A DNA stretch of 64,000 nt. It comes from Sandaracinus amylolyticus (lineage in GTDB: Bacteria > Myxococcota_A > Polyangia > Polyangiales > Sandaracinaceae). Both the position numbers and the translations under genes were made by a program. Shown piece after piece: positions 2,760-10,906 of this stretch. The stretch is from the NCBI RefSeq assembly GCF_000737325.1, contig NZ_CP011125.1, forward strand, positions 2,170,001 through 2,234,000, read 5' to 3'. Every line of letters begins with the position of its first letter. The first letter of the stretch is position 1. The notes below the pieces were generated by a model. That model did no database searches, was not told the DNA's origin, and saw nothing but the letters and a program-made list of their open reading frames with translations.

Positions 2760-3923
2760 ATGGAGCTCGCACACTTCGAGACGGACCCGCGTTCACTTCC
2801 CGATGCCGAGCGCCTGCGTCGCTTCGGCGACGAGCTCGACGCGATCAAAGCCCGCGTCGAAGCGGAGATCGGCGCGGAGGACCTCGCGTACGTGCGCCGC
2901 ATGCATCGCTTCTCGCGCACGATGGAGGTGCTCGGCCGCGTGCTCATCCACGTGAGCCCCGAGCCGATCACGTGGAGCGCGGGCGTGATCGCGCTGTGGA
3001 TCCACAAGCAGCTGCAGGCGACCGAGATCGGCCACACCGTGCTGCACGGCGCCTACGATCGCATCGAGGGCAACGGGAAGTTCGACAGCAAGAAGTGGTG
3101 GTGGCGCGTGCCGATCGACGAGGAGTCGTGGCGCTACGGGCACAACGTCCGGCACCACGGCGCGACCAACGTCGCGGGCAAGGACGCCGACATCCACTTC
3201 GGCCCGGTGCGCCTCACCGAGCAGACGCCGCACCGCGCGGAGCATCGCTTCCAGCTGCTCTTCGCGCTCGCGGTGCTGTTCCCGAACTTCGGGTTCCTCA
3301 TGAACCTGCACTTCACGGGGCTGAACGATCTCCACTGGGACAACGGGCTCCCCGGCGGCGAGAAGCAGCTCGACTTCATCCCCGATCGATCGCCCGAGAG
3401 CCGTCGCCTCGCGTGGAAGCGCGCGCTCCGGAAGTACGTGCCCTACTACGCGTACGAGTACGGCCTCTTTCCGCTGCTCGCCGGGCCCTTCTTCTGGAAG
3501 GTGCTGCTCGGCAACTGGCTGAGCGACACGATGCGCGACGTGTACTCGGCCGCGACGATCTTCTGCGGTCACGTCGGCGAGCGCACGAAGAGCTACGACC
3601 CCGGCACGAAGAGCAAGAGCCGCGGCGAGTGGTACGCGATGCAGATCGAGGCGAGCAACGACTTCGAGGTGCCCTGGGTCGTGTCGGTGCTGTGCGGCGG
3701 GCTCGATCGACAGATCGAGCACCACCTCTTCCCGAAGCTCGCGCCCCAGCGCCTGCGCGCGATCGCGCCCGAGGTCCGCGCGCTTTGCGAGAAATATGGC
3801 GTCGACTACCGCACCGGCTCGTGGCCGCAGGTGCTGAGGGACGCGCTCAGGTGGATCGACACGCTCTCGCGTGATCACGGTGCGATCGGCGGCGCCCGGG
3901 CCGCGCTCGCGGCGATGGCATGA
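2760..3923 (+). CDS. Membrane fatty acid desaturase
   Basis: A 387-residue di-iron desaturase with all three histidine boxes: H92-x3-H96, H128-x3-H132-H133, and Q318-I-E-H321-H322 followed by LFP. The QxxHH third box is typical of the front-end/acyl-lipid branch that introduces double bonds into membrane fatty acids. Hydrophobic stretches fit an integral inner-membrane enzyme. The ATG at 2760 has a perfect AGGAGG (2747-2752) 7 nt upstream and was chosen over an in-frame start 39 nt earlier. The upstream palindromes suggest repressor control, perhaps by a lipid-responsive regulator. Exact positional specificity cannot be read from sequence. Confidence 0.9.
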   Translation: MELAHFETDPRSLPDAERLRRFGDELDAIKARVEAEIGAEDLAYVRRMHRFSRTMEVLGRVLIHVSPEPITWSAGVIALWIHKQLQATEIGHTVLHGAYDRIEGNGKFDSKKWWWRVPIDEESWRYGHNVRHHGATNVAGKDADIHFGPVRLTEQTPHRAEHRFQLLFALAVLFPNFGFLMNLHFTGLNDLHWDNGLPGGEKQLDFIPDRSPESRRLAWKRALRKYVPYYAYEYGLFPLLAGPFFWKVLLGNWLSDTMRDVYSAATIFCGHVGERTKSYDPGTKSKSRGEWYAMQIEASNDFEVPWVVSVLCGGLDRQIEHHLFPKLAPQRLRAIAPEVRALCEKYGVDYRTGSWPQVLRDALRWIDTLSRDHGAIGGARAALAAMA

Positions 3924-3983
3924 CCGCCGTTCCTGCCGATGGCGGACTGACGGCTGCGATGTTCGCGCGGGCCGCGTCTCTGG

Positions 3984-3989
3984 TAGAAA
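3984..3989 (+). promoter_or_regulatory. -10-like element, short leader, MerR-type gene
   Basis: TAGAAA, preceded by TGG, ends 8 nt before the chosen ATG at 3998, so transcription would begin at or next to the start codon. It lies downstream of the desaturase stop. Confidence 0.4.
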
Positions 3990-3997
3990 CGGCGTCG

Positions 3998-4759
3998 ATG
4001 TCCTCTTCCGAGGCGAGCGCGGCCGAGCCCGAGTACACGATCGACGAGCTCGCGCGCGAGTCGCGTGTCCCGAGCCGCACGATCCGCTTCTACCAGAGCA
4101 AGGGCGTCCTCATGGCGCCGGTGCTGCGCGGGCGCGTCGCGTACTACGGGCCGAAGCACCTCGAGCGGCTCGAGCTGATCGCGCAGCTGCAGGATCGCGG
4201 GCTGAAGATCGACACGATCCGCGAGCTCGCGGCGCGCCTCGACAAGGGCGAGATCGACGTCGCGGACTGGCTCGGCCTCGACGCGCAGCTGCGCGCGCCG
4301 TGGGCCGAGGATCGGCCGCGCACCGTGACCGAGGCGCAGCTGATCGAGCTCGCGGGCGCGAAGCGCCCGGGGTTGGTCGCGGACCTGGTGCGCACCGGCG
4401 GCGTGGAGCGACACGGCGACGTGTTCCTCGTGCGCAGCCCGGCGCTCCTGCAGGTCGCGATGAAGCTCGAAGGCGCGGGGGTCGATCTCGAGGTCGCGAC
4501 GAAGGCCGCGGACATCTTGAGGCGACACCTCGCGAAGGCCGCGAAGGATCTGACCGACCACTTCTTGTCGCACGCGGGCCGCATCCTCGAGGGCGAGTAC
4601 GAAGGCGACCTCGGCCGCGCGGTGGAAGCGCTGCGTCCGCTCGGCCTCGACGCGGTGCGCATCGTGTTCGCGCAGGAGATGGAGAAAGCGCTCGCGGCGC
4701 TGCGCGACTCGGGCCGCGCCGCGAGGCTCCCGACGCGGAAGAAGAAGAAGATCCGCTGA
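3998..4759 (+). CDS. MerR-family transcriptional regulator
   Basis: A 253-residue regulator. The N-terminal winged helix-turn-helix is clear (YTIDELARESRVPSRTIRFY, then the AYYGPKHLERLELI wing-helix region, then LKIDTIREL). The remaining 170 residues form a helical effector/dimerisation region without metal-binding Cys patterns, and the tail is very basic (RKKKKIR). An in-frame ATG at 3920 overlaps the desaturase stop by 4 nt and would add 26 residues; 3998 was preferred because a -10-like element lies just before it and MerR proteins begin close to the HTH. Its place behind the desaturase suggests it may regulate lipid genes (inference). Confidence 0.85.
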   Translation: MSSSEASAAEPEYTIDELARESRVPSRTIRFYQSKGVLMAPVLRGRVAYYGPKHLERLELIAQLQDRGLKIDTIRELAARLDKGEIDVADWLGLDAQLRAPWAEDRPRTVTEAQLIELAGAKRPGLVADLVRTGGVERHGDVFLVRSPALLQVAMKLEGAGVDLEVATKAADILRRHLAKAAKDLTDHFLSHAGRILEGEYEGDLGRAVEALRPLGLDAVRIVFAQEMEKALAALRDSGRAARLPTRKKKKIR

Positions 4760-4769
4760 GGAGCGCCTC

Positions 4770-5185
4770 CCAGCTCGGATTGCTGAGGGGCGCAGGATCT
4801 CGCGCGATGAATGATCCGCATTCGCTCGATTTGGCGCAGCTCTGAGGAGTTGCCGCCAAGGAGAGCAGGAGGAGCAGGAAGGGATTCGCGCGACGAGCGA
4901 GCCGCGTGAGCTCGGATGGCTCGAGTTGCGCAGCTCTGAGGAGTTGCCGCTAAGGAGAGCAGGAGGAGCAGGAGGGGATTCGCGCGATGAGCGATCCGCG
5001 TGAGCTCGGATGGCTCGAGTTGCGCAGCTCTGATTATGAGGAGTTGCCGCTAAGGAGAGCAGGAGGAGCAGGAGGGGATTCGCGCGATGAGCGACGAGTC
5101 TGAGCTCGAGGTGGCGCAGCTCTGCTCTGATAATGAGGAGTTGCCGCTGAGGGAGCAGGACGGGCAGGTGGGATTCGCCGCGCGT
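4770..5185 (+). repeat. Tandem array of about 94-bp units with start-codon-bearing short frames (array A)
   Basis: This 450-bp stretch between the MerR-type and GxxExxY genes is mostly a degenerate tandem repeat. GCGCAGCTCTG begins at 4834, 4928, 5022 and 5114, and a partial unit precedes the first. Each unit holds GAGGAGTTGCCGC, then an AGGAGAGCAGGAGGAGCAGG purine run, then ATTCGCGCG followed by ATGA (ACGA in one unit). ATGs at 4807, 4987 and 5087 open short related frames (MNDPHSL, MSDPRELGW, MSDESELEV; two continue to EELPLR). Whether they are translated is unknown. No established gene is present here. Confidence 0.85.
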
Positions 5186-5212
5186 GGATTCGCCCGAGCT
5201 CGGTCGACTCGC

Positions 5213-5629
5213 TCAGCGAGACCTTCCACGAGGCGGTGCGGAACGCGCGCGCGGCGTGGCCGTGACGATGACCCGCTTCGCTTCGAGCTTCGGTTTGGCG
5301 AAGTTCAGGATCACACCGTGCTCGCGCCCGACGGCGCGCAAGTACGACCGGACGACCGCGAAGTGCGAGTCGGTCACGTCCTTCACTGCCTTGAGCTCGA
5401 CGACGATCTCTCCAGCGACGAGCAGATCGAGCCGGTGCGTCCCGACCTCGACGCCGCGGTACACCACCGGAACCGAACGTTCACGCTCGTACGACAGACC
5501 CCGCGCGCCCAGCTCGAGCGCGAGCGCGCCCGCATACACGCTCTCGAGAAACCCCGGACCCAGCGCGCGATGCACGGCGATCGCCGCTCCAATGAGGCTG
5601 CGCGTCATTTCTTCGTGCTCGAGCGGCAT
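5213..5629 (-). CDS. GxxExxY family protein (PD-(D/E)XK-like)
   Basis: A 138-residue member of the GxxExxY family. The signature is visible near the N-terminus (IGAAIAVHRALGPGFLESVY: G-F-L-E-S-V-Y). It is followed by the conserved VVYRGVEVGTHRLDLLV and EIVVELKAVK segments, whose D, E-x-K pattern is that of a PD-(D/E)XK nuclease-like fold, and by RSYLRAVG and GVILNFAKPKL. The biochemical role of the family is not established. The ATG at 5629 is preceded by GGAGG 5 nt upstream and gives the usual start; an upstream ATG lies in the repeat. The gene sits between two tandem arrays, one behind its stop and one in its leader. Confidence 0.88.
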   Translation of the reverse strand: MPLEHEEMTRSLIGAAIAVHRALGPGFLESVYAGALALELGARGLSYERERSVPVVYRGVEVGTHRLDLLVAGEIVVELKAVKDVTDSHFAVVRSYLRAVGREHGVILNFAKPKLEAKRVIVTATPRARSAPPRGRSR

Positions 5630-5700
5630 GCGCCTCCGACGAGCACGCGGCGCGCGACTGACGCGTTCCGCAAACCCCTCCACGGCGGGAGCCCAAGACG

Positions 5701-5966
5701 CATGGAGCACCACGTCGAGCGAAGTACCGTGGCCTTCCTTCTCCTCCTGCCCTCCTCAGAAATTCCGAAAGGCGGGATCCAGAAGACGCATGGAGCACGA
5801 CGTCGAGCGAAGTACCGTGGTCTTCCTTCTCCTCCTGCCCTCCTCAGAAAATTCCGAAAGGCGGGATCCAGAAGACGCATGGAGCACGACGTCGAGCGAA
5901 GTACCGTGGTCTTCTGTCTCCTCCTGCCCTCCTCAGAAATTCCGGAGGGTGGAGCTCCTGCTCTCC
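5701..5966 (-). repeat. Tandem array of 88-89-bp units upstream of the GxxExxY gene (array B)
   Basis: Three near-identical units begin (plus coordinates) at 5701, 5789 and 5878. Read on the minus strand each contains TCTGAGGAGGGCAGGAGGAG, then GTACTTCGCTCGACG, then GTGCTCCATG, so each opens a short frame (MRLLDPAFRNF). One unit has an extra base that changes the frame end. The innermost unit runs into the leader of the GxxExxY gene, so the array looks like a multiplied leader. The rest of 5630-5978 holds no recognised gene. Confidence 0.88.
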
Positions 5967-5978
5967 TGAGAGGCTCGA

Positions 5979-6449
5979 TCAGCGCTTCGTGCGGCGATCC
6001 AGGTAGTCCCGCAGGTGCGGCACGATCTCCATCGCCAGCGCTTCCTCGGGCGTCTTCCATCCCGCCCAGATCAGCTCGCGCCCGTTGGGCTCCACGTGGA
6101 ACGGCTCTTCGAGGTCCGCTTCGAAGATGTCGAGCGAGTCCGTCCGGTGCTCGAACGGGAAGCTGCCCGCCCATGCGTGCCTCAGCGCGTCGTCGGGCAG
6201 CGCGAGGCCGAGCTCCTCGTCGAGCTCGCGCCGCGCCGCGCGCCGCGCGTCCTCGCCGCTCTTCACGTACCCGCCGGGCAGCGAGTACGTCGCGCGATAG
6301 CTCGATCGGATCAGCAGGATCTTCCCGCGGAACCACAGCGCGACGAGCGCGCCGTGGGTCTCGGGCCTGCGGACGAGCCAATACGCGCGCAGCGCGAGGT
6401 GCGCGGCGCGGTAGACCATGCGGACGGGCGCGTTGACGAGCTCGCTCAC
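5979..6449 (-). CDS. NUDIX hydrolase
   Basis: A 156-residue NUDIX protein with a perfect Nudix box: G-x5-E-x7-R-E-L-x-E-E-x-G-L, seen in GGYVKSGE followed by RRELDEELGL. The box coordinates metal for cleavage of nucleoside-diphosphate-linked substrates; the actual substrate cannot be told. The N-terminus has the YRAAHLALRAYWLVRRPETHG helix common in this subgroup. The GTG at 6449 was chosen because a -10-like TATCCT (6462-6467, minus) ends 12 nt upstream; an ATG at 6419 would shorten it by 10 residues. It is divergent from an XRE-cupin regulator. Confidence 0.88.
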   Translation of the reverse strand: MSELVNAPVRMVYRAAHLALRAYWLVRRPETHGALVALWFRGKILLIRSSYRATYSLPGGYVKSGEDARRAARRELDEELGLALPDDALRHAWAGSFPFEHRTDSLDIFEADLEEPFHVEPNGRELIWAGWKTPEEALAMEIVPHLRDYLDRRTKR

Positions 6450-10739: not shown

Positions 10740-10763
10740 GCGTATCAACAGAGACGCATTCGG

Positions 10764-10906
10764 GCTTCCGACGCGCTCCGGAGGCTTCCGACGCGCATTT
10801 CCGCCCGGAAGACGCGCTCCGCGGAGGCTTCCGACGCGCTCCGGAGGCTTCCGACGCGCTCCGGGAGCTTCCGACGTGCTCCGGGAGCTTCCGACGCGGC
10901 ACGATC
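10764..10906. repeat. 20-bp tandem repeat array (array C)
   Basis: About seven copies of GCTTCCGACGCGCTCCGGAG, beginning at 10764, 10784, 10804 (diverged, 23 bp), 10827, 10847, 10867 and 10887. Several units contain the self-complementary CTCCGGAG. The array starts 24 bp after the LysM-M23 stop and ends before the convergent cytochrome gene. There is no gene in 10740-10980. Confidence 0.9.

Follow-up and report, generated by a model that had tools for sequence, protein, structure and literature searches.

REP repeats are scattered through extragenic DNA, where they form inverted doublets whose spacers are short and variable (PMC3116915). Each REP is a palindrome that forms a hairpin and carries a GTAG motif; the partner enzyme, RAYT, belongs to the Y1 HUH transposases (PMC8266576). 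Known 23S rRNA IVSs are small elements that contain an ORF and end in inverted repeats of 28 bp (PMC4990558). They reside within rRNA genes, their ORF codes for a four-helix bundle, and their excision takes place at the RNA level. Here we describe a locus of Sandaracinus amylolyticus in which a GxxExxY gene is framed by two inverted repeat arrays, a layout that shares features with both systems and with MITEs and insertion sequences. The analysis suggests that the GxxExxY nuclease runs, or once ran, a very small mobile repeat of a kind not described before. No earlier description of such a GxxExxY-arm unit was found in the open-access literature. Among 5.39 million open-access papers the name GxxExxY appears in two, and in PMC8934634 it serves as an annotation label only.

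The window, which is the whole 64,000-nucleotide stretch analysed, covers positions 2170001-2234000 of a single contig of 10,327,335 bp (features in Table 1). Its MerR (+) and NUDIX (-) genes are convergent, and array A, the GxxExxY gene and array B lie in between. A sequence-only reading had pointed to inward-facing arrays with a common core around this gene. These are real: array A on the plus strand and array B on the minus strand pair as inverted repeats over 23-24 nt with 91-92% identity, and this paired-array architecture exceeds chance by far. The core common to both arrays is TGAGGAG...GCAGGAGGAG, into the middle of which the array A arms bring about 14 additional bases (TTGCCGCTAAGGAGA) compared with array B. 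The GxxExxY gene probably starts at the ATG at 5629, with GGAGG upstream, and is the only PF13366 member in the genome. Elsewhere in the window, a 20-bp unit (GGCTTCCGACGCGCTCCGGA) stands in tandem at 10763-10898 (6.7 copies).

Table 1. Features of the GxxExxY locus and its two neighbours (window coordinates)
Feature	Position	Strand	Evidence and remarks
MerR-family regulator	3920-4759	+	PF13411 E 1e-19; 93% identity with sister species G002; left neighbour, outside unit
Array A, tandem ~94-bp units, 3.5 copies, inward arm in each	4843-5178	+	TRF; family D1
Arm A1	4851-4882	+	R1 model 31.3 bits
Arm A2	4945-4976	+	R1 model 31.9 bits
Arm A3	5045-5076	+	R1 model 32 bits
Array A fourth arm, degenerate	5143-5176	+	partial copy GGAGCAGGACGGG (D6)
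GxxExxY gene, predicted PD-(D/E)XK nuclease, 138 aa	5213-5629	-	TIGR04256/PF13366; AlphaFold2 pLDDT 87; conserved E57, D96, E106, K108
Array B, three tandem 88-89-bp units, arms point left	5684-5944	-	TRF; family D2
Arm B1	5728-5765	-	R1 model 40.7 bits
Arm B2	5816-5853	-	R1 model 42.5 bits
Arm B3	5905-5942	-	R1 model 30.7 bits
Outermost arm, partial, few bp from NUDIX stop	5955-5976	-	R1 model 18.9 bits; 90% complementary to array A arms (I14)
NUDIX hydrolase	5979-6446	-	PF00293; 94% identity with G002; right neighbour, outside unit

The GxxExxY product matched TIGR04256 with 124.4 bits (curated cut-off 35, E 3e-36) and PF13366 (PDDEXK_3) with 120.1 bits (curated cut-off 22, E 9e-35). No Y1 HUH transposase domain was found in it, PF13366 being the sole match. 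Among 77 GxxExxY sequences, E57, D96 and K108 are invariant and E106 is nearly so, numbered on the 166-aa ORF beginning at 5713 and not on the 138-aa form; this is the PD-(D/E)XK pattern, E-x-K included. The nuclease-like fold proposed earlier is borne out by the AlphaFold2 model. Its closest structure was the Cas4 nuclease SSO0001 (Foldseek E 8.5e-4, Z 9.7), with Hjc resolvases next (Z 7.5). Other PD-(D/E)XK enzymes also stayed at Z <8, and matches at that level (Hjc, restriction enzymes and others) may reflect the common fold only. A sequence search returned no solved structure of a GxxExxY relative. The protein is thus predicted to have an intact PD-(D/E)XK active site and a Cas4/Hjc-like fold. 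It shares fold and active-site pattern with Cas4 and archaeal Hjc but has no gene context in common with them, and its family match is weak (PADLOC Cas4b, E 0.024).

Three other identities were rejected. A defence gene was dismissed on that weakness of the PADLOC matches. For CRISPR, the neighbouring genes examined included no recognisable Cas gene, and the single Rfam match, CRISPR-DR29 at 4694-4734, lies inside MerR and scored 25 bits where 39 are needed. For a phage origin, a search of 50,697 phage records gave no match to GxxExxY, and no PHROG matched it either. The family is present across bacteria and in archaea and is rare on plasmids (7 of 72,556 plasmid records).

We examined how the arm repeat is distributed in the genome. 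The array A sequence had 49 genomic matches and that of array B 67, and a sequence-only model of the window arm (R1) gave 151 matches at E<=10, of which 101 remained at E<=0.01. The arm matches group into 57 clusters, 35 of them with both orientations. Strictly inward (plus-then-minus) order was found in 34 of these 35, and in the exceptional cluster an inward set is preceded by one weak, isolated minus match. In the mixed clusters the inner gaps span 0-223 bp against 651 bp at the GxxExxY locus, indicating that gene-less inward pairs are the rule and the gene-bearing pair is the exception. Across 19 genomes searched, the core was essentially absent from other genera, with one weak match in G006 besides those in the sister species G002. 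The sequence-only reading had tied the core to the GxxExxY gene and had held that a core lacking at other loci, or a general genomic repeat, would speak against the idea. The core is indeed a dispersed, mostly gene-less repeat that is nearly absent from other genera, so the tie to the gene fails; however, the core is the wrong thing to judge by, because every lineage has its own arms.

Comparison with the sister species bears on the age of the gene-less copies. G002 carries 84 arms, and no GxxExxY gene was detected in it, which indicates that arms persist without the gene. Each of the seven gene-less elements tested has a counterpart at the corresponding G002 site, so this genus gives no sign of recent movement. 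Between the two species, the arms of these elements are 83% identical and the inter-arm spacers 54%, and arm number differs. The gene-less copies in this genus look old, with their arms maintained or homogenised. At elements 357155 and 2525760 and their orthologues (L266, L269), the arms alternate between GGAGGAGAAGG and GGAGGGTTAGG from species to species; in element 2525760 both arms have switched jointly, which hints at inter-arm conversion or selection on pairing. Single arms are non-palindromic, and the five tested as hairpins folded no better than shuffles; for a gene-less unit as a whole, a strong hairpin was predicted.

Several elements in the S. amylolyticus genome are only tens of bp away from the end of a gene, and of 23 classified sites 8 are convergent and 1 divergent. 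This placement, together with conserved positions and the excess of arm over spacer identity, would fit arms with a regulatory or structural role, as bidirectional terminators, hairpins for 3' processing or sites that organise the chromosome, with GxxExxY as their dedicated housekeeping nuclease and nothing moving. We consider this reading very unlikely, as relatives lack the whole unit in the homologous operon gaps and its spread across phyla is independent of the hosts (both below).

In G002 the MerR and NUDIX genes are adjacent and 93-94% identical to the window copies, and the homology ends at their stop codons. A look for empty sites at this junction in sister strains had been suggested, and gene and arms are indeed missing there, but the gap is not clean: it holds 433 bp of unrelated, coding-like sequence (L272, G002:C1:5385754-5386186), and a clean empty site was therefore rejected. 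In other genera, where both genes were found, they lie on separate contigs or about 200 kb apart, so the change at this junction cannot be polarised. Since the G002 junction has neither gene nor arms, the unit is variable within the genus.

Next to the GxxExxY genes of relatives we found other flanking sequences in an identical layout. Full-length loci from relatives within the taxonomic order had inverted flanks in nine of nine cases; G003 (L047), for example, has two CCGGGAGGAGAGGAGGCCGGGAGATT arms to the left of the gene and three inverted ones to the right. A survey then covered 80 loci from GTDB genomes, the closest relatives of this query set, of which 71 were testable. The left 600 bp of each gene were aligned with its right 600 bp, and an inverted match of at least 32 bits was counted as arms. 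Such arms frame GxxExxY in 40 of the 71 loci, from 13 phyla, and the other 31 have none at this threshold; the frequency of 56% may be inflated, because the full-length loci of the query set all have inverted flanks. At the same threshold, 3 of 344 shifted positions in GxxExxY loci and 8 of 295 neighbouring ORFs were positive (Fisher p about 5e-26), and some of the neighbouring ORFs counted are themselves dispersed arms. A small independent sample from plasmid records had arms at two of seven tested GxxExxY loci. That the GxxExxY nuclease gene and the inverted repeats on its two sides make up a discrete, probably mobile unit thus holds as a general feature of the family as well as for this one locus.

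A typical arm starts with (A)ACC, followed by three or four CRCNNAG or CRCNNAT motifs at 8 or 9 nt spacing. Median distances of the two arms to the matched coding region are 46 and 60 bp, and the median unit is 483 bp long. In 35 of the 40 armed loci the purine-rich strand is read inward, and the window arms have a like polarity. The sequences differ among lineages: the arms are CGCAGAGG in Niveibacterium and CGCCAAG in Phycisphaeraceae. At G046:C476:2804-3550 (L045, L051), two convergent GxxExxY genes stand 45 bp apart between inverted repeat flanks of 157-166 bp with 92-93% identity.

Arm type was then compared with the protein. On a GxxExxY tree of 77 sequences, the arm iteron type needs 5 changes where the minimum is 4, and 300 shuffles gave a mean of 15.8 and a lowest value of 11; resolution of this tree is weak, and the classes of arm were set after the arms had been inspected. 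The Mantel test, which is class-free, gave r 0.41 between arm and protein distance, and 0.40 for different-phylum pairs only, values that none of 2000 permutations reached. By contrast, the tree shows no fit to host phylum, which needs 23 changes against 25.7 shuffled. That gene and flanking repeats form one unit, as had been proposed, is supported by this co-segregation. On these sequence comparisons the simplest reading would be that the unit travels whole, each protein clade being matched to its own arms. The arms could instead be moved by another enzyme, with GxxExxY as captured cargo that does not act on them. The 84 arms of G002, the mostly gene-less arms of S. amylolyticus and the four-helix-bundle genes found in similar settings (below) would all suit such cargo, which would leave the tracking of GxxExxY clade by arm sequence across 13 phyla, the recurrent framing and the tight unit length unaccounted for; we regard it as quite unlikely.

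A model of the arms from surveyed GxxExxY loci (R2) found 4-142 matches per genome in 14 arm-bearing genomes tested, 2 and 11 in two Bacteroidota genomes with an armless GxxExxY gene, and none in the genome of the window. In the three genomes listed in full, all 40 mixed clusters (19, 13 and 8) are oriented inward, and most are gene-less, so that with S. amylolyticus dispersed gene-less inward pairs are present in four genomes. The gene-sized gaps are the GxxExxY loci themselves, of 415 bp (L149; Niveibacterium, G065) and 378 bp (L161; a Methanosarcinales archaeon, G068), and the remaining inner gaps in these three genomes measure 9-229 bp. In G064, the gene's own arms are CGCCAAG and the dispersed pairs listed have CGCAGAG.

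Presence and absence of the unit could be followed in two operons. In Sphingomonas parapaucimobilis, a unit of about 435 bp runs from TTCACGCGAAGG to CTTCGCGTGAA between fabD and fabG, in the order fabD stop, TCTTTT, unit, CCAAAGAATTGGAGGATAAGC, fabG start, with 27 nt outside the unit. The same gap without a unit is 29 nt in S. paeninsulae and 30 in Rhizobium indigoferae, and is similar in Shinella and Methylobacterium. In Bacteroides finegoldii, radA and a gene for an FAD-dependent protein are separated by a unit of about 472 bp whose arms are TTCACCACAGAGGACGCAGAGG; in Parabacteroides distasonis this gap is 13 nt. Near-plain gaps are left outside the unit, which indicates that it consists of arms, gene and little else. 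These empty sites lend support to the earlier suggestion of a mobile unit, and the comparison with distant relatives of about 70-75% DNA identity, rather than sister strains, points to insertion into the operon gaps. No target-site duplication was detected with element ends known to a few bp: the length of duplication-like matches was 1.63 against 1.73 shuffled, and none of 40 elements reached 5 or more.

Insertions into operons would also be tolerable if they were excised from RNA, as in an IVS-like element whose arms pair in RNA and whose insert is cut from transcripts (RNase III-like), the nuclease being a passenger or an RNA-processing factor. The unit and the 23S rRNA IVS with its S23p ORF have a similar size, terminal inverted repeats and one small ORF, and the strong hairpin of the gene-less unit would suit pairing in RNA. 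Genes matching PF05635 (23S_rRNA_IVP), the four-helix bundle, likewise lie between inverted arms of 6-7-nt tandem repeats, for example (GTCGTCA)n, (CGTGGT)n and (GTACTC)n, amid protein genes (L181, L182, L183, L192, L207 and L208, in G038, G018, G053, G051 and G015). This setting hints that the class may be wider, and it leaves an explanation at the RNA level in play. Even so we judge it unlikely: no unit was seen in any rRNA gene here, with MerR and NUDIX as neighbours in the window, the ORF is not PF05635 and encodes a predicted nuclease, and tandem multiplication of the arms and their adherence to protein phylogeny are features that RNA pairing alone does not need. Rfam, moreover, had no known RNA family in the window region or at 14 loci, one tRNA aside. 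Convergent pairs of four-helix-bundle genes about 45-115 bp apart occur, many per genome, in G012 (C2, C5, C6, C10), G040, G047 and G053. A place for four-helix-bundle genes inside the S. amylolyticus arm clusters was rejected, as those listed lie outside them.

The reading we prefer is that gene and two arrays constitute one unit, and that this unit is probably a compact element that moves or propagates repeats, or a descendant of one. We infer that GxxExxY binds and cleaves the arms and that the unit transposes. The protein would bind its own iterons and cut at the arms, or at a hairpin or cruciform (four-way junction) formed by arm pairing, an option proposed because its predicted fold resembles those of Cas4 exonucleases and Hjc junction resolvases. 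A nuclease alone joins no strands, so the joining step must come from elsewhere; host repair or replication may copy or join the unit into intergenic DNA without target duplication. Scattered gene-less arm pairs would then be non-autonomous copies, as REPINs are to a RAYT gene, and the window arms would have been multiplied to about 4 + 4 through tandem duplication. Because the gene-less elements look old and settled, the family in this genome may be past its active phase.

Such a unit would work by analogy with the REPtron (RAYT/REPIN), in which an enzyme gene is flanked by the repeat, inverted doublets are dispersed and enzyme and repeat are specific to each other, a specificity seen here as co-segregation. 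Yet it lacks two features that define such systems, their enzyme class and palindromic repeats: GxxExxY is a PD-(D/E)XK and not a Y1 HUH protein, and its arms are non-palindromic iterons. With MITEs and insertion sequences it shares short inverted termini and gene-less copies that outnumber the gene-bearing one, but no transposase was found in the unit, and it has no target-site duplication, arms multiplied in tandem and non-conserved spacers. A broader proposal, which we advance tentatively and at a little under even odds, is that GxxExxY proteins are the engines of cross-domain mobile repeats, each a lone PD-(D/E)XK nuclease without a transposase, with arms of 8-9-nt iterons, every clade reading its own iteron, and that they are one source of intergenic repeats of the CRCNGAG / CGCCAAG type, which many genomes contain.

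For GxxExxY, a widely annotated family without a known role, the candidate substrate is now its own iteron arms. The unit may be where one class of intergenic repeats, observed here in several phyla, comes from, and it is suggested that REPIN-like systems have also arisen with an unrelated enzyme. The clade-specific nuclease-iteron pairs would offer a natural set for DNA recognition by minimal PD-(D/E)XK nucleases.
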